From: Acidobacteriota bacterium
GTDB lineage: Bacteria; Acidobacteriota; Vicinamibacteria; Vicinamibacterales; UBA8438
Direction: 5' to 3'
Assembly (NCBI GenBank): GCA_009861545.1
Contig: VXME01000105.1
Location: forward strand, 1-59,375
Length of the DNA: 59,375 nucleotides
Under the pieces are notes generated by a model, which saw nothing but the letters and a program-made list of their open reading frames with translations, was not told the DNA's origin and searched no databases. Both the position numbers and the translations under genes were made by a program. The number at the start of each line of letters is the position of its first letter. Positions within the stretch are counted from its first letter, which is position 1. Shown here piece after piece: positions 12,963 through 24,694 of the stretch.

Positions 12963-14606
12963 ATGTCCACGCTTCCTGCTCCCGGCACGAAGGCGGCCTC
13001 GTTCGCGTTGCGCGACGCCGCCGGCGACCCCTGCGCGTTCGGTCCCGACGGCCCTGCCGCGCCGGCGACGCTGCTCTTCTTCTTCAAGCACGACTGCGCG
13101 ACGTGCGACCTGACGGCGCCCCTGGTCGAACGGGTGCACCAGGCGCTGTCGGGCTCCGGCCTGCGCGTGCTGGGCGTCTCGCAGGACGACGCGGCGCTCA
13201 CCGCCGGTTTCGCCGAGCGGCACGGGCTCACGCTTCCGCGTGCTCTCGACGCCGAACTGCTCGTTTCCGAAGAGTACGGCTTCGACGCCGTCCCCGCGTT
13301 GGTGCTGGTCGACGGGGATGCCAACGTCCTGGCCAGCTTCGAGGGTTTCGGCAAGACCGACCTGCAGACGCTGGCCGACCTCGCGGCCGAGCGGTGCGGT
13401 GGCGCCGCGCCGGCGGTAGAGAGAGAGGGCGAGTCGCTACCCGACTCGCGGCCCGGGTGCGGCTCGAAGGTGCACGATCCCGACGTGGCCCGCCGGCTGG
13501 CGGCCAGACGCGATGCCTCGAGGCTGGCCGCGCGCCGGGTCCGCATGCCGGCCGACCTCGATCCGTTCGAGTTCCTCGACCAGCAGGGTCTGACCGACGG
13601 CCTGCCCGTGGTGCCGCCCACCGAGGAACGTGTGGCGCGGATGCTGGCCGGCACCTCGCGGCCGCCCGGTGACGTGGTGGCCGACGTGCCGCCCAACCTG
13701 GCTCCGGCCACGGTGGAGAAGGTCGCCATCAACGCCGTCATGGCCGGCTGCAAGCCGGTGTACCTGCCGGTGGTCATCGCCGCCGTGGAGGCCGCCTGCA
13801 CGGATGCGTTCAACCTGCACGGGGTGCTGGCGACGACCTACTTCGTCGGGCCGCTCGTCATTGTCAACGGGCCGATCCGCCACGAGATAGGGCTCAACTG
13901 CGGCAGGAACGTCTTCGGCCAGGGCACCCGCGCCAACGCCACCATCGGGCGCGCCCTGCAGCTCGTGGTTCGCAACGTGGGCGGCGGCCGTCCCGGCGAG
14001 GTGGACATGTCCACGCTCGGCCAGCCGGGCAAGTTCGGCGCCTGCATCGGCGAGCTCGAGGAGCTGAGCTGCTGGGAGCCGCTGCACGTCGAGCGCGGCT
14101 TCGACCGCGAGCAGAGCACCGTCACCGTCTTCGCGGCCGAGGCGCCGCGCGCCATTCGCGACCAGCTCTCCCGCAACTCGCGGTCGCTGGCGGCCAGCAT
14201 GGGGTTCTCGCTCGAAGCCATCGCCCACGTCAAGCTGCACGGCATGGATCAGGCGCTGCTGGTGGTCTCGCCCGAGCACGCCCGCACCTTCGAGCGCGAC
14301 GGGTACACGCGGGACGACCTCCGCGCCCGGATTCAGGAGGTGACCGCCCGGCCGCTGCGCGACGTGCTGCCGAACGACGAGTGCCAGAAGGGGACCGTGG
14401 CGCGCGCGCTGCCGAAGGACTGGCTCGGTCCCGGCGGCCGGCCGACACCCGAGGCGCTGGACCGCCCCTTCCCGAAGTTCTCGCAGGCGGACAACATCCT
14501 CATCATGGTGGCCGGCGGCACGGCGGGGAAGTTCTCGGCGGCGGTCGGCGGGTGGGCCAGCGGCGGACTGGGGTCGAAGGCGGTCACGCGGCCGATCCGG
14601 CGGTAG
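12963..14606 (+). CDS. Thioredoxin-like domain fused to TDGLPVVPP domain (UGSC-associated)
   Basis: About 547 residues. Residues 1-150 form an AhpC/TSA-thioredoxin-like domain: APGTKAASFALRDAAG, FFFKHDCATCD with a CxxC redox pair, GVSQDDAALTAGFAERHGL, VPALVLVDGDANVL. After a charged linker comes a 340-residue domain starting DPFEFLDQQGLTDGLPVVPP, with FNLHGVLATTYFVGPLVIVNGPI, GLNCGRNVFGQGTRANATIGRA and a C-terminal NILIMVAGGTAGKFSA. The same domain occurs alone at 20275-21399. It has no assigned function that I know. It lies 1.1 kb before one UGSC selenoprotein gene, and the lone copy is 100 nt before the other, so a redox partnership is inferred. No signal peptide. Confidence 0.85.
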   Translation: MSTLPAPGTKAASFALRDAAGDPCAFGPDGPAAPATLLFFFKHDCATCDLTAPLVERVHQALSGSGLRVLGVSQDDAALTAGFAERHGLTLPRALDAELLVSEEYGFDAVPALVLVDGDANVLASFEGFGKTDLQTLADLAAERCGGAAPAVEREGESLPDSRPGCGSKVHDPDVARRLAARRDASRLAARRVRMPADLDPFEFLDQQGLTDGLPVVPPTEERVARMLAGTSRPPGDVVADVPPNLAPATVEKVAINAVMAGCKPVYLPVVIAAVEAACTDAFNLHGVLATTYFVGPLVIVNGPIRHEIGLNCGRNVFGQGTRANATIGRALQLVVRNVGGGRPGEVDMSTLGQPGKFGACIGELEELSCWEPLHVERGFDREQSTVTVFAAEAPRAIRDQLSRNSRSLAASMGFSLEAIAHVKLHGMDQALLVVSPEHARTFERDGYTRDDLRARIQEVTARPLRDVLPNDECQKGTVARALPKDWLGPGGRPTPEALDRPFPKFSQADNILIMVAGGTAGKFSAAVGGWASGGLGSKAVTRPIRR

Positions 14607-14694
14607 TGACGCAGAGAGACTGGACCGTGATCGTTGTAGGCTGGTCTTGATCAGCGCTTTCAGTTCCACGCCGGAGCCGCAGGCGGAACCGGGA

Positions 14695-15573
14695 ATGCAC
14701 GGCGCCGACATGGCAAGAGATAACAGCCTCACGGACAGCGCCCGACTGTGCAAGCTGGCCGAACGGATCGGCGCGGCGATGGACGCCGGGATGGTCGTGC
14801 TGTTCGGCTCGCGCGCCACGGGAACCGCGCGCCACGACAGCGACGTGGACATCGCCATCATCGACGCGCGCAAAGCGGACAGCGAGAGCGGATGCCGGGT
14901 GCTGGCCGGCGCCGGGGCGGACGAGCCTCCGATCGACAGCGGCCATCTTGCTTCCCGGGACTTCACGGACTGCTTCGCCAGCACGCGCGGACTGCACCGC
15001 AGTGTATGGAACGACGGGTTGATCCTGTACAGCCGGGAACGCGGCATCGAGAGCCCGCCGCCGCGCCTGCGCGACAGGCTGCAGGTGAACCGATTCGACA
15101 AGACGACCGAAATGGGATGGCAGAAACTGACGGCGGCGGAAGAAGCGCGGCGCGCGATCGAAAAGGCCGACGAGCAGCGAAGCAACGCACGGGCGATGCC
15201 GGGCACGGCAAGCGAGACCGGGTACATGATGCTCATGGCCCAGTCGCTGGAACAGGCCATCAAGGCCGTTCTGCACGCCAGCGGCCAACGGGTGCGGCCC
15301 GGACACCATCTGCAGGAATACGCCGAGAGGACTGAGAGACTCGGCGAACGGATAACCGACGGGATCGATCACCGCGAGCTCAAGCTGATCTCCGAAGCGG
15401 GGAACCAGGGGCGATACGGCAACTGGGAACACGAAGGCCACGTGCCCCGCGAGCGGGCGCAGGCCATCGTCGACATCGTGTACGAGCGCTGTGCAAGTCG
15501 GATAGCGGACCTCGTGGGCGACCGAATGCAGAGATCGAGCGAAGCTCCGGGTCCTTCAGGCAGAAGAGAGTGA
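14695..15573 (+). CDS. MNT nucleotidyltransferase-HEPN domain fusion protein
   Basis: The N-terminal minimal nucleotidyltransferase carries GSRATG and the catalytic GS-x10-DxD spacing (GSRATGTARHDSDVD); FTDCFAS and HRSVW follow. The C-terminal half is a helical HEPN domain (ETGYMMLMAQSLEQAIKAVLH, HHLQEYAER) with a candidate R-x5-H site, RYGNWEH. In MNT/HEPN toxin-antitoxin pairs the MNT protein adenylylates and silences the HEPN RNase; here both parts are in one chain. The start is uncertain: ATG 14695 has AGGCGGA 8 nt upstream, ATG 14710 and TTG 14647 are alternatives. It sits between the TDGLPVVPP fusion and UGSC gene 1. Confidence 0.75.
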   Translation: MHGADMARDNSLTDSARLCKLAERIGAAMDAGMVVLFGSRATGTARHDSDVDIAIIDARKADSESGCRVLAGAGADEPPIDSGHLASRDFTDCFASTRGLHRSVWNDGLILYSRERGIESPPPRLRDRLQVNRFDKTTEMGWQKLTAAEEARRAIEKADEQRSNARAMPGTASETGYMMLMAQSLEQAIKAVLHASGQRVRPGHHLQEYAERTERLGERITDGIDHRELKLISEAGNQGRYGNWEHEGHVPRERAQAIVDIVYERCASRIADLVGDRMQRSSEAPGPSGRRE

Positions 15574-15705
15574 ATTCACCCTGCCTCTTCGCTCCGGACC
15601 TGCTCGACAACTTCATGTCGGTGGACCAACCTGCCCACAGCAAGGCGGCGCCGATCAGTGAACGCGCCGTGTGCTAGAGTGAAGCGCATCCAGCCGGGAG
15701 GCCGC

Positions 15706-16239
15706 ATGCACGACGCTTCCGTCATTCTCGATCCGACCGACGAACGCGAACCGATCGGCCGGCAGCTCGCGGCGCGCGCCGGCGGCCTGTCCGGCACTGT
15801 CGGAATCGTCGACATCTCGAAGCCGCGCGGCGACGTCTTCTGCGACGAGCTCGAGGCGTTGCTGCGGGACCGGCAACCCGGCCTCGACGTCATCCGCCTG
15901 CGGAAGCCGACCTTCACGCGGCCGGCCCCGACCGATCTGCGCGAGGAGGTGGCCGAGCGCTGCAAGGCGGTGATTCAGGCCCTCGCCGATTGAGGGTCCT
16001 GCACGTCGTGCAGTGTGCACGACCTGGTCGACTACGAGGCGCAGGGCATCCCCACGGTGATGGTGGCGTCCACCGAGTTCGTCGAGGCCGCCGAGCGGCA
16101 GTCGGTTGCGCTCGGCATGCCGGATGTGGCGGACCGTGCGGTCTATGTGCCGCATCCCATCCAGGACGCGACGGACGACGAGATGCGCGCCAAGGCGCGC
16201 GCGGCGTACGACGCCATCGTCGAGGCGATCACGCACTAA
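15706..16239 (+). CDS. UGSC family selenoprotein, copy 1 (in-frame TGA at 15991-15993 = Sec96)
   Basis: One gene of 177 residues when the TGA is read as selenocysteine. The upstream part (MHDASVILDPTDEREP to VIQALAD) and downstream part (HDLVDYEAQGIPTVMVASTEF to AIVEAITH) are in the same frame and join through Sec96-Gly-Ser-Cys99-Thr-Ser-Cys102. That is the UGSC signature of a known family annotated as (seleno)protein. Eleven bases after the TGA begins a perfect 8-bp hairpin. The start ATG has a ribosome site (GGGAGG). The fold is probably alpha/beta with the Sec/Cys pair at a strand end; the reaction is unknown. A standard caller would report two truncated proteins here. Confidence 0.9.
16005..16023 (+). 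promoter_or_regulatory. SECIS-like hairpin for UGSC copy 1
   Basis: GTCGTGCA-GTG-TGCACGAC: eight perfect base pairs with a 3-nt loop, starting exactly 11 nt after the TGA (15991-15993). In E. coli fdhF the SelB-binding upper stem also starts 11 nt after the UGA. The copy in UGSC gene 2 differs at a single base, in the loop. It lies inside the coding sequence, as bacterial SECIS elements do. Confidence 0.75.
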
Positions 16240-18117: not shown

Positions 18118-20226
18118 ATGCCCGGTTCGGTCACGTTCGAACGCCACGACGACGTCGCGCTGCTGCGGCTGACGAATCCCCCCGTCAACGGCCTGAGCTT
18201 CGCCATGCGCGCCGCGCTGGGTGAGCGCGTGGCCCAGGCGCTGGCCGACGAAGCCGTCAAGGCGATTGTCATCGCCGGGGCCGACCGCATGTTCTGCGGC
18301 GGGGCCGACATCCGGGAGTTCAGCGCGCCGCCGCCGCCCGGAGCGGCACACCTGCCCGCGATCCTGGACGAGATCGAGGCCTCGCCGAAACCCGTCGTCG
18401 CCGCCATCCACGGCGTGGCGGCCGGAGGCGGCATGGAGGTGGCGCTGGCGTGCCACGTGCGGCTCGCCGCGCCCGGCACGCGGCTCGGGCTTCCGGAGGT
18501 GACGCTCGGCATCCTGCCCGGCGCGGGAGGCACGCAGCGCATGCCGCGGCTCATCGGTGTGGAGAAGGCGCTGGAGGTGATCGTCGGCGGCAAGCTCCAT
18601 CCGGTGGAGAAGGCAGCGGCCCTGGGCTTCGTCGACGAGTGCGTCGAGGGCGACCTGGTGGCGACGGCGATCGCCCGGGCTCGTCAGCTCGCAGCCGACG
18701 GCACGCCGCTACGGCGGGCGTCGAAGCTCACGGAGCATCTGGAGGCGGCGCGCGGCCGCCCCGGGATCTTCGACGACTTCCGCAAGAAGATGGCGAAGCG
18801 CGCTCGCGGCTTCGACGCGCCGTACGCCTGCGTCGACTGCGTCGAGACGACGCTGACGATGCCCTACGCCGAGGCGCTGAAGAACGAGCGGGTCGTGTTC
18901 CACCGGCTACGCGAATCGGACCAGTCGGCGGCGCAGCGGCACGCCTTCTTCGCCGAGCGCGAAGTGGCCAAGATCCCGGATGTGCCGAAAGACACCCCGG
19001 CCCGGCCGATTGCGTCGGCGGGAGTCGTCGGCTGCGGCACGATGGGCGGCGGGATCGCGATGAGCATCGCCAACGCGGGCCTGCCGGTGACGGTTCTCGA
19101 ATCGTCGCCCGAGGCGCTCGACCGCGGCATGGCCATCATCCGGAAGAACTACGCGGCGACCGTTTCGAAGGGGCGGCTGTCGCAGACGCAGATGGACGCG
19201 CGGCTGGCGCGCATCACCCCGACGCTGGACGACGCCGCCCTGGGCGCCGCGGACGTCGTGATCGAGGCGGTGTTCGAGGAGCTGCCGCTGAAGAAGGAGG
19301 TCTTCGCCCGGCTCGACCGCGTGTGCAAGCCGGAGGCGATCCTGGCCACCAACACCTCGACCCTCGACGTCGACGCCATCGCCGCCGCCACGTCGCGGCC
19401 GGCGCAGGTCGTCGGCACCCACTTCTTCAGCCCGGCGAACGTCATGAAGCTGATGGAGAACGTGCGCGGCGCCCGGACGTCGCCCGAGACCATCGCCACC
19501 GTCATGAAGCTGTCGAAGAAGCTGGGCAAGGTGGGCGTGCTGGTCGGTGTCTGCGACGGCTTCGTCGGCAACCGGATGCTCTACGCCTACCGCCGGCAAG
19601 CGGACTTCCTGCTGGAGGAAGGCGCGCTGCCGGAGCAGATCGATCGGGTCATCTATGACTTCGGCCTGCCGATGGGGCCCTACCAGATGGCGGATCTCGC
19701 CGGTCTGGACGTGAGCTGGCGGGTGCGCAAGGCGCAGGCGCCGACCCGGCCGGCGCACCTGCGCTACTCGCCGATCGCCGACCGCATCTGCGAGCAGGGT
19801 CGCTACGGGCAGAAGACCGGCGCCGGCTGGTACCGGTACGAAGCGGGGAGCCGCGTCCCCATTCCCGACCCGGCCATCCACGATCTCATTGCCGGGGTGT
19901 CCGCGGAGTTCGGCATCGAGCGCCGCGCGATCGGCGACGACGAGATCGTCCCGCGGTGCCTCTATCCGCTCGTCAACGAGGGCGCGAAGATCCTGGACGA
20001 GGGACTCGCGCTGCGCGCCAGTGACATAGACATCATCTGGATGCATGGCTACGGCTTCCCGCGCTACCGCGGCGGTCCGATGTTCTGGGCCGACCTGGTG
20101 GGGCTGCGGACCGTCTACGACGCGATGAGCCGGCTCCACGACGAGCACGGCGAGTGGCTCGAGCCGGCGCCGTTGCTGAAACGCCTCGCGGAGCAGGGCA
20201 AGGGGTTCAAGGACGTCGGGAAGTGA
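18118..20226 (+). CDS. Fused enoyl-CoA hydratase/3-hydroxyacyl-CoA dehydrogenase
   Basis: Bifunctional beta-oxidation enzyme of 702 residues in the FadB/FadJ order. Residues 1-190 are the crotonase domain (NPPVNGLSFAMR, AGADRMFCGGADIREF, the oxyanion-hole IHGVAAGGGMEVAL, ILPGAGGTQRMPRL). From about 300 comes the NAD-binding dehydrogenase (VVGCGTMGGGIAMSIANAG, Rossmann GxGxxG). Then follow the C-terminal domain with HFFSPANVMKLMENV and GFVGNRMLYAY, and a second C-terminal repeat (YGFPRYRGGPMFWAD). Hydration and oxidation of acyl-CoA occur in the cytosol. Whether it serves fatty acids or a branched or aromatic acid route is not determinable. The next gene starts about 50 nt after the stop. Confidence 0.93.
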   Translation: MPGSVTFERHDDVALLRLTNPPVNGLSFAMRAALGERVAQALADEAVKAIVIAGADRMFCGGADIREFSAPPPPGAAHLPAILDEIEASPKPVVAAIHGVAAGGGMEVALACHVRLAAPGTRLGLPEVTLGILPGAGGTQRMPRLIGVEKALEVIVGGKLHPVEKAAALGFVDECVEGDLVATAIARARQLAADGTPLRRASKLTEHLEAARGRPGIFDDFRKKMAKRARGFDAPYACVDCVETTLTMPYAEALKNERVVFHRLRESDQSAAQRHAFFAEREVAKIPDVPKDTPARPIASAGVVGCGTMGGGIAMSIANAGLPVTVLESSPEALDRGMAIIRKNYAATVSKGRLSQTQMDARLARITPTLDDAALGAADVVIEAVFEELPLKKEVFARLDRVCKPEAILATNTSTLDVDAIAAATSRPAQVVGTHFFSPANVMKLMENVRGARTSPETIATVMKLSKKLGKVGVLVGVCDGFVGNRMLYAYRRQADFLLEEGALPEQIDRVIYDFGLPMGPYQMADLAGLDVSWRVRKAQAPTRPAHLRYSPIADRICEQGRYGQKTGAGWYRYEAGSRVPIPDPAIHDLIAGVSAEFGIERRAIGDDEIVPRCLYPLVNEGAKILDEGLALRASDIDIIWMHGYGFPRYRGGPMFWADLVGLRTVYDAMSRLHDEHGEWLEPAPLLKRLAEQGKGFKDVGK

Positions 20227-20274: not shown

Positions 20275-21399
20275 ATGGCGATGTCTGATTCCGGAACCGT
20301 TGCCGAGCGCGCGGAACGCGCCGCCGCGGCCGGCGGGATCGCGGATCTGATCGAGTACTACTTCGAGCAGGGCTGGACGGACGGCCTGCCGGTGGTGCCG
20401 CCGACGCCCGAGTCGGTGGCGGCCATGGTGGATGCCTTGGGGGGCGACGCGGCCCATCTCGAAACCCGCGTCCCGCCGCGCTGGGGCAACCTCACCCGCG
20501 AGGTGCTCGCCATCAATCTGGTGCTTGCCGGCTGCCGGCCCGACTACGCGCCGGTGGTGCGGGCCGCGCTGTTGGCACTCACGAGCAGCCCCTTCAACCT
20601 CCACGGCGTGCAGGCGACCACCCACATGGCCGCCCCGCTGGTCGTGGTGAACGGGCCGATCCGACAGGAGATCGGACTGAACGCGGGCCCCAACGTGTTC
20701 GGATCCGGCTTCCGGGCCAACGCCACCATCGGTCGCGCCATCCGTCTCGTGCTGCTCAATGTGGGCGGCGGCTGGCCGGGCGACCTCGACAAGAGCACGC
20801 TGGGACATCCCGGCAAGTACACCTTCTGCATCGCCGAGAACGAGGAGGCGAGTCCCTGGGCGCCGTACCACGTCGAGCACGGTTACCGGCCCGAGGACAG
20901 CACGGTCTTCTGCATCGCCGCCGAGGGGCCGCATAGCGTCACCAACCACGTGGCGAACGACCCGGAAGGCATCCTCGACAGCATCGCGTCGGCGATGAGC
21001 ACCATCGCCCACAACAACGCCGTCAGCAGCGGCTCGTGCGCCGTCGTCATCGGGCCGGAGCATGCCGCGACGATTGCCGCGAAGCAGTGGACGCGCCAGG
21101 ACGTGCGGCGCTACCTTTGGTCGGCGACAACCAATACGTTCGACGACATCAGCTTCGGGGGGCGCTACGGGAAGATTTACAACCGCAACCTGCCCCGCTG
21201 GTACAGGCGGGAGCCGGGGGCGCGCATTCCCATCGTGCCGTCCGCGGACGACATCCACCTGTTCGTGGCCGGCGGCGACGCCGGCCGCTTCTCGGCGTTC
21301 TTGCCGGGATGGGGGCACATGACGTCGCCCGTGCTGCGGGCGATCGACGGTCGGCCGCCGGGGACGGGGGAGTGCGTCGACGGGACGTGTGCGCTCTGA
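20275..21399 (+). CDS. Stand-alone TDGLPVVPP-domain protein (UGSC-associated)
   Basis: About 374 residues, homologous along its length to the C-terminal 340 residues of the fusion at 12963-14606: GWTDGLPVVPPTPESV, FNLHGVQATTHMAAPLVVVNGPI, GLNAGPNVFGSGFRANATIGRA, NVGGGWPGDLDKSTLG, and DIHLFVAGGDAGRFSAFLPG. It lacks the thioredoxin domain but ends in GECVDGTCAL with two cysteines. No signal peptide. ATG 20275 or 20281 could start it (AGGGA upstream). UGSC gene 2 follows 100 nt later on the same strand. No function is known to me; repeated pairing with UGSC genes suggests a shared pathway or complex. Confidence 0.8.
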   Translation: MAMSDSGTVAERAERAAAAGGIADLIEYYFEQGWTDGLPVVPPTPESVAAMVDALGGDAAHLETRVPPRWGNLTREVLAINLVLAGCRPDYAPVVRAALLALTSSPFNLHGVQATTHMAAPLVVVNGPIRQEIGLNAGPNVFGSGFRANATIGRAIRLVLLNVGGGWPGDLDKSTLGHPGKYTFCIAENEEASPWAPYHVEHGYRPEDSTVFCIAAEGPHSVTNHVANDPEGILDSIASAMSTIAHNNAVSSGSCAVVIGPEHAATIAAKQWTRQDVRRYLWSATTNTFDDISFGGRYGKIYNRNLPRWYRREPGARIPIVPSADDIHLFVAGGDAGRFSAFLPGWGHMTSPVLRAIDGRPPGTGECVDGTCAL

Positions 21400-21498: not shown

Positions 21499-22044
21499 AT
21501 GGCTAGAGAACGCCTGCCGGACGGACGCATCGTCTACGACCCGCGCGGGACGGTGACCGCGGAGCCGCGCGAGCTGGCGGCCCGCCTGGAGATGCTCGAC
21601 GGCGTTCGGCTAGGCGTGCTGGACAACACCAAGTGGAACGCGTCGAAGCTGTTGCGCCGCGTCGTCGCCGGCCTGGAGACTGGACTGACGTTCGCTCAGG
21701 TGAACTTCTACGACAAGGAGAGCTTCTCCCGGCCGGCGCAGCCGGACCTACTCGACGTGATCGCGGCGGAGAACGATGCGGTGATCACCGCGATAGGCGA
21801 TTGAGGGTCGTGCACGTCGTGCAGTCTGCACGACGCGGTCGGCCTTGAGGAGCGGGGCGTTCCGACGGCGGTCATCGTGACCGACGCGTTCCTCCATGAA
21901 GCCGACGTGCAGCGAACGGCGCTCGGCGCGGAGCGCCTCGATCCGGTAGTCATCACCCATCCGCTCAGCACGCTGACCGACGAGGAGATCGCCGGGCGCG
22001 CCGCCGAGGCGGCGGCCGGCGTCAGGCGGACCCTCGTCGCGTGA
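21499..22044 (+). CDS. UGSC family selenoprotein, copy 2 (in-frame TGA at 21802-21804 = Sec102)
   Basis: Reading the TGA as selenocysteine gives 181 residues. The first part (MARERLPDGRIVYDPRG to DAVITAIGD) continues in frame through Sec102-Gly-Ser-Cys105-Thr-Ser-Cys108 into HDAVGLEERGVPTAVIVTDAF and ends RRTLVA before the TGA at 22042-22044. The part after the first TGA has no start codon or ribosome site of its own, yet aligns with copy 1 after the Sec. Elsewhere the paralogues are well diverged, so this is not a recent duplicate. It follows the lone TDGLPVVPP gene. Role unknown; a thiol/selenol redox centre is likely. Confidence 0.9.
21816..21834 (+). promoter_or_regulatory. SECIS-like hairpin for UGSC copy 2
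   Basis: GTCGTGCA-GTC-TGCACGAC: eight perfect pairs and a 3-nt loop, beginning 11 nt after the TGA at 21802-21804. It matches the copy 1 hairpin at 18 of 19 positions, including silent third codon positions. Confidence 0.75.
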
Positions 22045-22197: not shown

Positions 22198-23355
22198 TTA
22201 CGCCGACCGTGTGACGGGAGCGTGCTCCCGCACGTAGTCCATCAGGCTCGGGATTCCCGGTTCCCAGACCGGTTTCGCCTCCGGCCGCCACACGTACCCC
22301 ACGTTGCGCAACAGGTCCTTCGCCGTCGTCGAGTCGGCCTCCGGCACGGCTGCCAAGCCGCGGCGAATTGCCGTCTCGAGTTGCACGTCGTCCAGCAGAG
22401 GACGTGTGTCGAAGGCCTCCGCCACGGACCGCGCCACGGGCAGCAGGCGCAACGTCTCGAGCTCTTCGTAGCGATCGAGGTAGTAGTCGTCCTTCTCCCG
22501 GTTCACGGCGGTCTGCACGGCGGTGGCCGCCGCCAGCGTGATGCGCCTTTCTTCGGCCACGCCCGGTGGAGCGGCACGCGGTGGAGTGGCACCCGCCGCC
22601 CGGCGCCACACCGCCTGCCCCCAGAGTTGCACGAAATACGGGTAGCCGTGGCTGTCGCGGACGATGTGCGCAAGGGCGTCGTCGTCGATGTCGATGTCGT
22701 CGCTTCGCAACGGATTCCGCACCGCCGCCGCGGTCGCCGGTCCGTCCAGCCGGCCGATGGGACGCCGGTCGGCCCGGTTCCAGAACGTCGCGTCCATCGC
22801 ATTCAGGTGGGCGCGCAGGTTCGGGGTGCCGGCCAGCACGAGCAGGAACGGCAACCTTCTGCCCACCTGCTGGCCGGCATTCAGCAGCGCGCGGCCGACG
22901 GCGACGTCCAGCGTGTGCGCCTCGTCGATCAGCAGAAGCAGCGGCGCTTTCCGCACACGTGCCGCCAAGGCTTCGTCCAGCGGCGGTGGGTCGCGCCGCC
23001 CCGGCCGCCACGTGATCCCCTGCACGGACACCTGCCCCGGCGCGAAACGCCGCCACCAGGATGCGGGCAGGAGACGCTCGACGAGCTTCGTCTCGTCAGG
23101 CATGCCGGCCGGCGTGAGCGACAGAACGTCGACGCCGGCGTAGGCGGCGGCTTCCTGCTGCAGCCAGACGAGCAGGGCGGTCTTGCCGTTGCCGCGCGGT
23201 CCGTGCAGCACGAGATCGCGCGACGGAGCCAGGCCGTCGCGCAGATCGCCGAGGAGCGCCCGGCAGAGCGCCTGCACGGACGCTCGTCCTGCCAGGTACG
23301 GCGGCAGTCCACCCGCGCCCGGTCGAAACGGCCCCTGCCGGCTCCGCGTCACCAT
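22198..23355 (-). CDS. AAA+ ATPase
   Basis: P-loop ATPase of about 385 residues. Walker A is GPRGNGKT, Walker B LLLLIDEAH, sensor region LVLAGTPNLRAHL, and a helical C-terminal part that may be a winged-helix (RRGLAAVPEADSTTAKDLLRNVGYVW). The layout resembles Cdc6/Orc-like or STAND-type ATPases used in regulation. The partner is unknown. ATG 23355 (MVTRSRQG) is preferred; an upstream ATG at 23427 would overlap the start codon of the divergent larA-like gene on a shared CATG. A 150-nt gene-free gap separates it from UGSC gene 2 (convergent). Confidence 0.8.
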   Translation of the reverse strand: MVTRSRQGPFRPGAGGLPPYLAGRASVQALCRALLGDLRDGLAPSRDLVLHGPRGNGKTALLVWLQQEAAAYAGVDVLSLTPAGMPDETKLVERLLPASWWRRFAPGQVSVQGITWRPGRRDPPPLDEALAARVRKAPLLLLIDEAHTLDVAVGRALLNAGQQVGRRLPFLLVLAGTPNLRAHLNAMDATFWNRADRRPIGRLDGPATAAAVRNPLRSDDIDIDDDALAHIVRDSHGYPYFVQLWGQAVWRRAAGATPPRAAPPGVAEERRITLAAATAVQTAVNREKDDYYLDRYEELETLRLLPVARSVAEAFDTRPLLDDVQLETAIRRGLAAVPEADSTTAKDLLRNVGYVWRPEAKPVWEPGIPSLMDYVREHAPVTRSA

Positions 23356-23413
23356 CGGCGTCACGCTCCACGCACCCGTACTCGCCCCCCGCAGTGCGGC
23401 CGAGCGGGCACGA

Positions 23414-23419
23414 TATGAT
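23414..23419 (+). promoter_or_regulatory. Candidate -10 of the larA-like gene, leaderless arrangement
   Basis: TATGAT (5 of 6) ends 6 nt before the ATG at 23426, so transcription would start at or next to the start codon. No Shine-Dalgarno sequence is present. Confidence 0.4.
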
Positions 23420-23425
23420 TCTGCC

Positions 23426-24694
23426 ATGAACGTCGATCTGGCCTACGGCCGCGGCCGCCTGTCGGTCGAGTTTCCGGATGACCGCACCACGGTCCTGGAG
23501 CCGTCCTACGTCGGCGGCCTGCCGGACGAGCAGTCGGCCATTCGCCATGCCTTGCGGATGCCGCTGGGGACGCCGCCGCTCGCGTCGCTCGTGAAGGCCG
23601 AGCAGAGTGTCGCCATCTCGGTCTGCGACATCACCCGGCCGATGCCCAGCGACACGCTGCTGCCGGTGCTGCTCGACGAGCTGGCCCATGTGCCCGACGA
23701 GCGGATCGCCATCCTGATCGCCACCGGCACGCACCGGCCCAACGATCGCGGCGAGCTGATCGAGATGCTCGGGCAGCCGATCGTCGACCGCTATCCCATC
23801 GTCAACCACAGCGCGTTCGACGAGGACGGTCTGGTGCACCTGGGCGAGGTGGAGCCGCGGGTGCCGGTCTGGCTGAACCGGCACTGGGTCGAGGCCGACT
23901 TTCGCATCACGACCGGGTTCGTCGAGCCGCACTTCTTCGCCGGGTTCAGCGGCGGGCCGAAGCTGGTGGCGCCGGGGCTGGCCGGGTTCAGGACAACGAT
24001 GCGGCTGCACGACGCCGAGATGATCGGCAGCCCGAACGCGCGGTGGGGCGTCATCGAAGGGAACCCCATTCAGGAAGCCATACGCCGCATCGCCTCCCAC
24101 GTCGGCGTCCACTTCAGCGTCGACGTCGCGATCAACCGCGACCGGCGGATCACCAGCGTCGCGGCGGGGGAGATCTTCGCCGTGCACCGGACGATAGCGG
24201 CGCGCGTCAAGCAGAGCGCCATGCAGGCGTTCGACGCGCCGTTCGATGTCGTCGTCACGACCAACAGCGGCTACCCGCTCGACCAGAACCTCTACCAGAG
24301 TGTGAAAGGCATGTCGGCGGCGGCGCAGGTGGTCAGGCAGGGCGGGGCCATCGTCTGCGCCGCGGAGTGCGCCGACGGGCTGCCGTCACACGGCGAGTAC
24401 GGCGACATCTTGCGGGCCCGCGAGACGCCGGAGGCGCTGCTCGAGATGATTTGCGCGCCGGGCCACAACCGGCACGACCAGTGGGAAGTGCAGGTCCAGG
24501 CGCAGATCCAGCAGCGCGCCGAGGTGTTCCTGAAGACCGACGGCCTCGCGCACGACGAGGTCCGCGCGGCGCACCTGACGCCCATCGACGACGTCGCGGA
24601 GACGACGCGCGAGCAGCTCGACCGGGCCGGTCCGGCGGCGCGGGTCTGCGTCCTGCCCGAGGGGCCGCAGACGATTCCTTATCTGGCCGGGTGA
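23426..24694 (+). CDS. larA: Lactate racemase (LarA) family protein
   Basis: Nickel-pincer-dependent racemase/epimerase family (LarA, DUF2088), about 422 residues. Landmarks are VAISVCDITRPMP, IATGTHRPN, the signature FVEPHFFAGFSGGPKLVAPGLAG (Lys that would bind the NPN cofactor), MRLHDAEM, and DVVVTTNSGYPLDQNLYQSVKGM in the second domain. No larB, larC or larE (cofactor synthesis) is in the window. Many LarA homologues act on 2-hydroxyacids other than lactate, so the substrate is open. It is divergent from the ATPase, and the VapC gene converges at its 3' end. Confidence 0.88.
   Translation: MNVDLAYGRGRLSVEFPDDRTTVLEPSYVGGLPDEQSAIRHALRMPLGTPPLASLVKAEQSVAISVCDITRPMPSDTLLPVLLDELAHVPDERIAILIATGTHRPNDRGELIEMLGQPIVDRYPIVNHSAFDEDGLVHLGEVEPRVPVWLNRHWVEADFRITTGFVEPHFFAGFSGGPKLVAPGLAGFRTTMRLHDAEMIGSPNARWGVIEGNPIQEAIRRIASHVGVHFSVDVAINRDRRITSVAAGEIFAVHRTIAARVKQSAMQAFDAPFDVVVTTNSGYPLDQNLYQSVKGMSAAAQVVRQGGAIVCAAECADGLPSHGEYGDILRARETPEALLEMICAPGHNRHDQWEVQVQAQIQQRAEVFLKTDGLAHDEVRAAHLTPIDDVAETTREQLDRAGPAARVCVLPEGPQTIPYLAG

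Follow-up and report, generated by a model that had tools for sequence, protein, structure and literature searches.

A UGSC-family selenoprotein gene and its probable partner subunit in an acidobacterial genome

Two UGSC genes and their neighbors

The window analyzed here is the whole 59,375-nucleotide stretch of an Acidobacteriota genome, and both UGSC genes with their TGA codons, hairpins and partner genes, as well as the symporter and hydratase/dehydrogenase genes near them, lie on its forward strand. UGSC gene 1 (15706–16239) encodes 177 residues with selenocysteine (Sec) at residue 96, an assignment based on the sequence, matches to the family models PF24696 and NF041046, and an AF2 model. 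It runs from ATG 15706 to TAA (16237–16239) with a single in-frame TGA between them (15991–15993), which sequence and homologue comparison mark as read as Sec. A Shine-Dalgarno-like GGGAGG (15696–15701) stands 4 nt 5′ of the ATG, which makes 15706 a better start than GTG 15658. An earlier note on this DNA had taken two apparent short frames for one gene. The ORF at 15658–15993 and the stretch to the TAA ending at 16239 indeed share a frame and join at TGA GGG TCC TGC. Started at ATG 15706, the joined protein has the predicted 177 residues with Sec as residue 96. The frame from 16015 opens with an in-frame GTG inside the hairpin described below. No Shine-Dalgarno-like sequence is seen 5′ of this GTG, in line with the earlier view that the second half has no ribosome site of its own.

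The joined translation matches the UGSC family above both curated cut-offs, as the assignment of the gene to this family predicted. Against PF24696 it scores 150.7 bits (cut-off 25; E 5.7e-44; profile positions 2–171 of 172), and against NF041046, ‘UGSC family (seleno)protein’, 156.8 bits (cut-off 125). Each half alone matches its own part of PF24696, the first at 2–92 (E 3.2e-13) and the second at 94–171 (E 5e-22), and the joined frame is therefore not due to chance. The family motif U-G-S-C, with Sec or Cys first, appears in gene 1 as DUGSCT with Sec from TGA, and gene 1 differs from the family in nothing of kind. UGSC proteins have appeared in the literature since 2008 or earlier, and both NCBIfam and Pfam model the family, so gene 1 joins an already known family. 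The expectation that standard annotation would lose the gene does not fully hold, as NCBIfam already has a model under the UGSC name. In aquatic metagenomes UGSC ranks with the most frequent selenoprotein families, with 255 sequences (PMC2398784). A 2026 review places it among selenoproteins with largely uncharacterised functions (PMC13188914), and we found no function for it in the literature on UGSC selenoproteins.

The host genome holds two UGSC paralogues, 5.8 kb apart and 33% identical. UGSC gene 2 (21499–22044, 181 residues) was recognized by its family match, TGA and hairpin, and its in-frame TGA (21802–21804) is at the same place as in gene 1. It directly follows the gene for partner 2 (20275–21399, 374 residues), with 99 nt from the partner stop to ATG 21499. 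Partner 2 consists of a single domain, here called the DGLPVVPPT domain, which it shares with the C-terminal part of partner 1 (12963–14606; start codon inferred, ORF from 12570). In partner 1 the domain is fused to a thioredoxin/ResA-like domain. Partner 1 and UGSC gene 1 are about 1.1 kb apart, with a nucleotidyltransferase frame in between.

The nucleotidyltransferase (14647–15573) carries a HEPN domain, and tblastn gave no match to it in 80 related loci (the best 80 of 591). Profile matches identify a sodium:solute symporter (PF00474; 16384–17943) after UGSC gene 1 and an enoyl-CoA hydratase/3-hydroxyacyl-CoA dehydrogenase at 18118–20226. A homologue of the lactate racemase LarA (PF09861, PF21113) lies near UGSC gene 2, at 23183–24694; LarA homologues are also found near UGSC in loci L055, L057, L071 and L073. 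A pathway built from non-partner neighbors (alpha/beta hydrolase, TauD, flavin reductase, RraA-like) was considered and dropped, each being present in a minority of loci only.

Reading of the in-frame TGA

Homologues were sought in named genomes with a pattern that starts after the Sec position, and thus the TGA was not part of the query. The search gave 591 confirmed loci, and the best 80 are the nearest relatives of gene 1; counts over them ignore relatedness. Their record titles place them in Acidobacteria, Actinomycetota, Chloroflexi, and Alpha-, Gamma- and Deltaproteobacteria, among others. The earlier note had named homologues with halves that are never joined and without Cys at this position as a finding that would speak against it. 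In all 80 of these best 80 loci the two halves join in one frame that is open apart from a TGA at the Sec position, and the protein sequence is conserved 3′ of the TGA. No Cys form at this position occurs among them; such forms may exist in more distant relatives, and PMC2398784 counts 21 Cys forms of UGSC. Across 297 genomes of the phylum, one TGA is present in every UGSC match that scores 113 bits or more (36/36).

The genome that holds the window (6.35 Mb, 99.3% complete) also has the Sec machinery whose presence the earlier note made a test of its claim. A tRNA-Sec scores above the Rfam cut-off and is called by ARAGORN too (tRNA-SeC, anticodon TCA). The selA gene (531 bits) and selD are present, and so is selB, in a frame that runs off the contig end. 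The selD match lies within an 827-codon open frame (L166 2577–5057, contig 27 of the host genome). The N-terminal part of this frame resembles NADH dehydrogenase by eye, comparable to the Ndh-SelD fusions of PMC2398784.

A SECIS-like hairpin is predicted by folding and conservation downstream of each TGA. That of gene 1 (16005–16023) has an 8-bp stem and a GTG loop at 16013–16015, and that of gene 2 lies at 21816–21834. Counting the U of UGA as nt 1, the hairpin occupies nt 15–33. It was aligned over 92 distinct sequences out of 110, which are related, so the counts are not independent. The six inner pairs (17–31 to 22–26) hold in 91 or 92 of the 92; the two outer stem pairs are weaker and hold in 74/92 and 55/92. 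Codon +7 is Ser in 90 sequences and is AGT in every one (90/90); outside this site, the 80 genes use AGT for 23 of their 543 Ser codons. Pairing between the third positions of codons +5 and +9 is kept in 92/92 (G-C 75, G-T 13 and, in place of the usual G-C, A-T 4). Folding energy lies below that of synonymous-codon controls (mean z −1.25, n = 92; window genes −1.86 and −3.56). Against dinucleotide shuffles, the two window hairpins are of modest stability (60-nt z −1.46 and −1.55).

The hairpin can be set beside known bacterial elements. An Rfam scan of the window gave 0 matches at gathering scores. The loop carries G23 in 91/92 and U24 in 92/92 sequences, and these two nucleotides are reported to be required in E. 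coli (PMC8659212). In bacterial Sec hairpins the apical loop lies 16–37 nt after the UGA (PMC10778597), and the spacing here, 19 nt with the loop starting at nt 23, falls inside that range. A check against the E. coli fdhF stretch puts the UGSC hairpin in the same place as the fdhF SECIS, with loop G23-U24 in register, but the UGSC hairpin has a three-base loop and lacks the bulged U17 of E. coli, as nt 17 is C in 92/92. Some known selenoprotein genes do not fit the consensus hairpin model (PMC9312934).

The TGA could instead be a true stop, either in a pseudogene or at the end of a truncated protein of 95 residues, or an artefact of assembly, as the standard code closes the frame here; however, the same TGA in two copies within one genome and in every near homologue, the conserved protein and hairpin 3′ of it, and the Sec machinery make this highly improbable. 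Equally slight is the chance that UGA is reassigned, or decoded by a near-cognate tRNA (Trp), without Sec. No evidence for this was found, and against it stand tRNA-Sec, selA and selD in the genome, a hairpin that appears to be under selection, and the UxxCxxC context of the UGA. Comparative evidence thus establishes 15706–16239 as an intact UGSC-family selenoprotein gene, with the UGA predicted to be decoded as Sec, helped by the hairpin directly downstream.

The DGLPVVPPT partner domain

The DGLPVVPPT domain finds no noteworthy match in Pfam or NCBIfam. The host genome contains exactly two UGSC genes and two partners. With at most 7 candidates scored per genome across the 297 genomes of the phylum, a partner was found in 31/31 genomes with UGSC vs 1/266 others (Fisher p 3e-41, not corrected for relatedness). 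That one match without UGSC is a 41-residue fragment at a contig end.

The association is also positional. Among the best 80 of 591 loci, the partner is in the flank of 70 and directly upstream in 64, its stop 270–476 nt before the Sec codon. Among the 71 of these loci whose upstream flank reaches 1500 nt or more, the partner is present in 66 and adjacent upstream in 60. The other 5 of the 71 have no partner nearby, from which absence from those genomes does not follow.

Fusion of UGSC and partner is seen in one lineage, genus g57 of family f35. All 11 of the long TGA-containing frames picked there by motif and length carry both, two of these frames (L044, L068) overlapping the same gene. The 2008 GOS survey reported UGSC joined to an unnamed domain, as a UGSC/Unknown_1 fusion (PMC2398784), to which the present fusion is likened by the fact of fusion alone. 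Genomes of genus g57 (L044–L050, L062, L068, L070) have 9–12 listed UGSC matches each. Most of these matches are in long TGA-containing open frames, which are UGSC-partner fusions where inspected, and some are without TGA.

Because the partner nearly always stands alongside UGSC, adjacent or fused, one shared enzyme is suggested. The genomic association strongly indicates an enzyme made of two parts, with UGSC as one half and the DGLPVVPPT domain as the other. As far as the literature on UGSC selenoproteins shows, the constancy of this partner has not been described. We put the probability of the joint reading, that UGSC gene 1 encodes a selenoprotein and also one half of such an enzyme, at roughly 0.87. 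With a partner this constant, next to it and in some cases fused to it, UGSC offers a concrete pair for co-expression and assay.

Fold, likeness to GrdB and possible chemistry

The AF2 model of the UGSC gene 1 protein, built with Sec as Cys (pLDDT 92.4), is an alternating alpha/beta domain with five strands. Residue 96 sits between strand 88–94 and helix 97–112. Strands of one sheet lie on either side of Sec, in line with the earlier note's view that both halves are needed for the fold. Structure searches rank flavodoxin-, lumazine-synthase- and receiver-like proteins highest, and the thioredoxin fold is not among the matches listed. A sequence search of solved structures gave no match to the UGSC protein at E up to 1, nor to the isolated partner domain with the limit set at E 10. 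When the partner was searched together with its N-terminal domain, only thioredoxin-like chains were found among the best 60 of 103 matches, and many partners carry such an N-terminal ResA/thioredoxin-like domain.

For the partner model (pLDDT 85.7), the best Foldseek matches are class I fumarases, with E 8.9e-5 but a TM of 0.25, and VIA-align gives a Z of at most 7.6 over 93 residues. These matches are unconvincing, and we therefore claim no fold for the partner. A fumarase-like iron-sulphur site in the partner was considered and dropped, C87 alone being invariant among its conserved Cys columns.

In the UGSC alignment, from which locus L073, with an N-terminus out of register, was left out, C99 and C102 are invariant in 34 aligned rows, which extends the motif to UxxCxxC. 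With Sec, UxxCxxC is the GrdB motif (PMC13188914), and UGSC shares it with GrdB/GrdF (PF07355) and PrdB. In GrdB locus L151, an E..GIP stretch comes after the Sec motif, spaced as in UGSC. Profile similarity to GrdB/GrdF is weak and covers the Sec half. UGSC gene 1 scores 16.8 and 15.3 bits against the NCBIfam GrdB and GrdF models, far below their cut-offs of 800 and 602.2. In one pair, hhalign aligns UGSC with GrdB at a probability of 53% and E 1.4e-4, and a gap in this alignment shifts Sec out of register. UGSC differs from GrdB in being a small single domain, and the GrdB profile does not match the UGSC partner domain.

By analogy, the selenolate of UxxCxxC, at a helix N-terminus, might attack a small organic substrate held together with the partner. 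Cys residues close to Sec, together with the thioredoxin-like CxxC domain that many partners carry, could then restore its reduced state. The chemistry would be like that of the GrdB arm of glycine reductase, a reductive C–N cleavage, and, with a symporter beside UGSC gene 1, the substrate may be an imported solute. GrdB-like chemistry for UGSC and its partner is, even taken alone, a tentative suggestion that we consider doubtful. The same caution applies to the fuller proposal, in which the pair would be a self-contained glycine-reductase-B-type selenoenzyme for the reductive cleavage of a solute. Its Sec subunit, substrate subunit and integral thioredoxin domain would be encoded together, in a single operon or as a single chain; it would occur in several bacterial phyla and have multiplied in one lineage of this phylum.

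UGSC might instead be a general thiol-disulfide oxidoreductase of thioredoxin-like fold rather than a GrdB-like enzyme, with the partner merely its reductant or client. PMC2398784 calls the UGSC fold likely thioredoxin-like, and both the UxxC motif and the thioredoxin-like domain fused to many partners would suit such a role. The AF2 model argues otherwise, as its five strands alternate with helices and its matches are flavodoxin-, lumazine-synthase- and receiver-like. In addition, partner 2 has no thioredoxin domain, and the partner is too constant to be a client. We regard this role as unlikely and continue to favor the two-part enzyme of UGSC and DGLPVVPPT domain.

The GrdB comparison yielded one further observation, on the Pfam model itself. 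The GRDB model (PF07355) ends at Sec, and in 12/12 loci (L151–L162) the first stop codon reached is a TGA with xxC or xxxC after it. These short GRDB frames look like cut selenoproteins.
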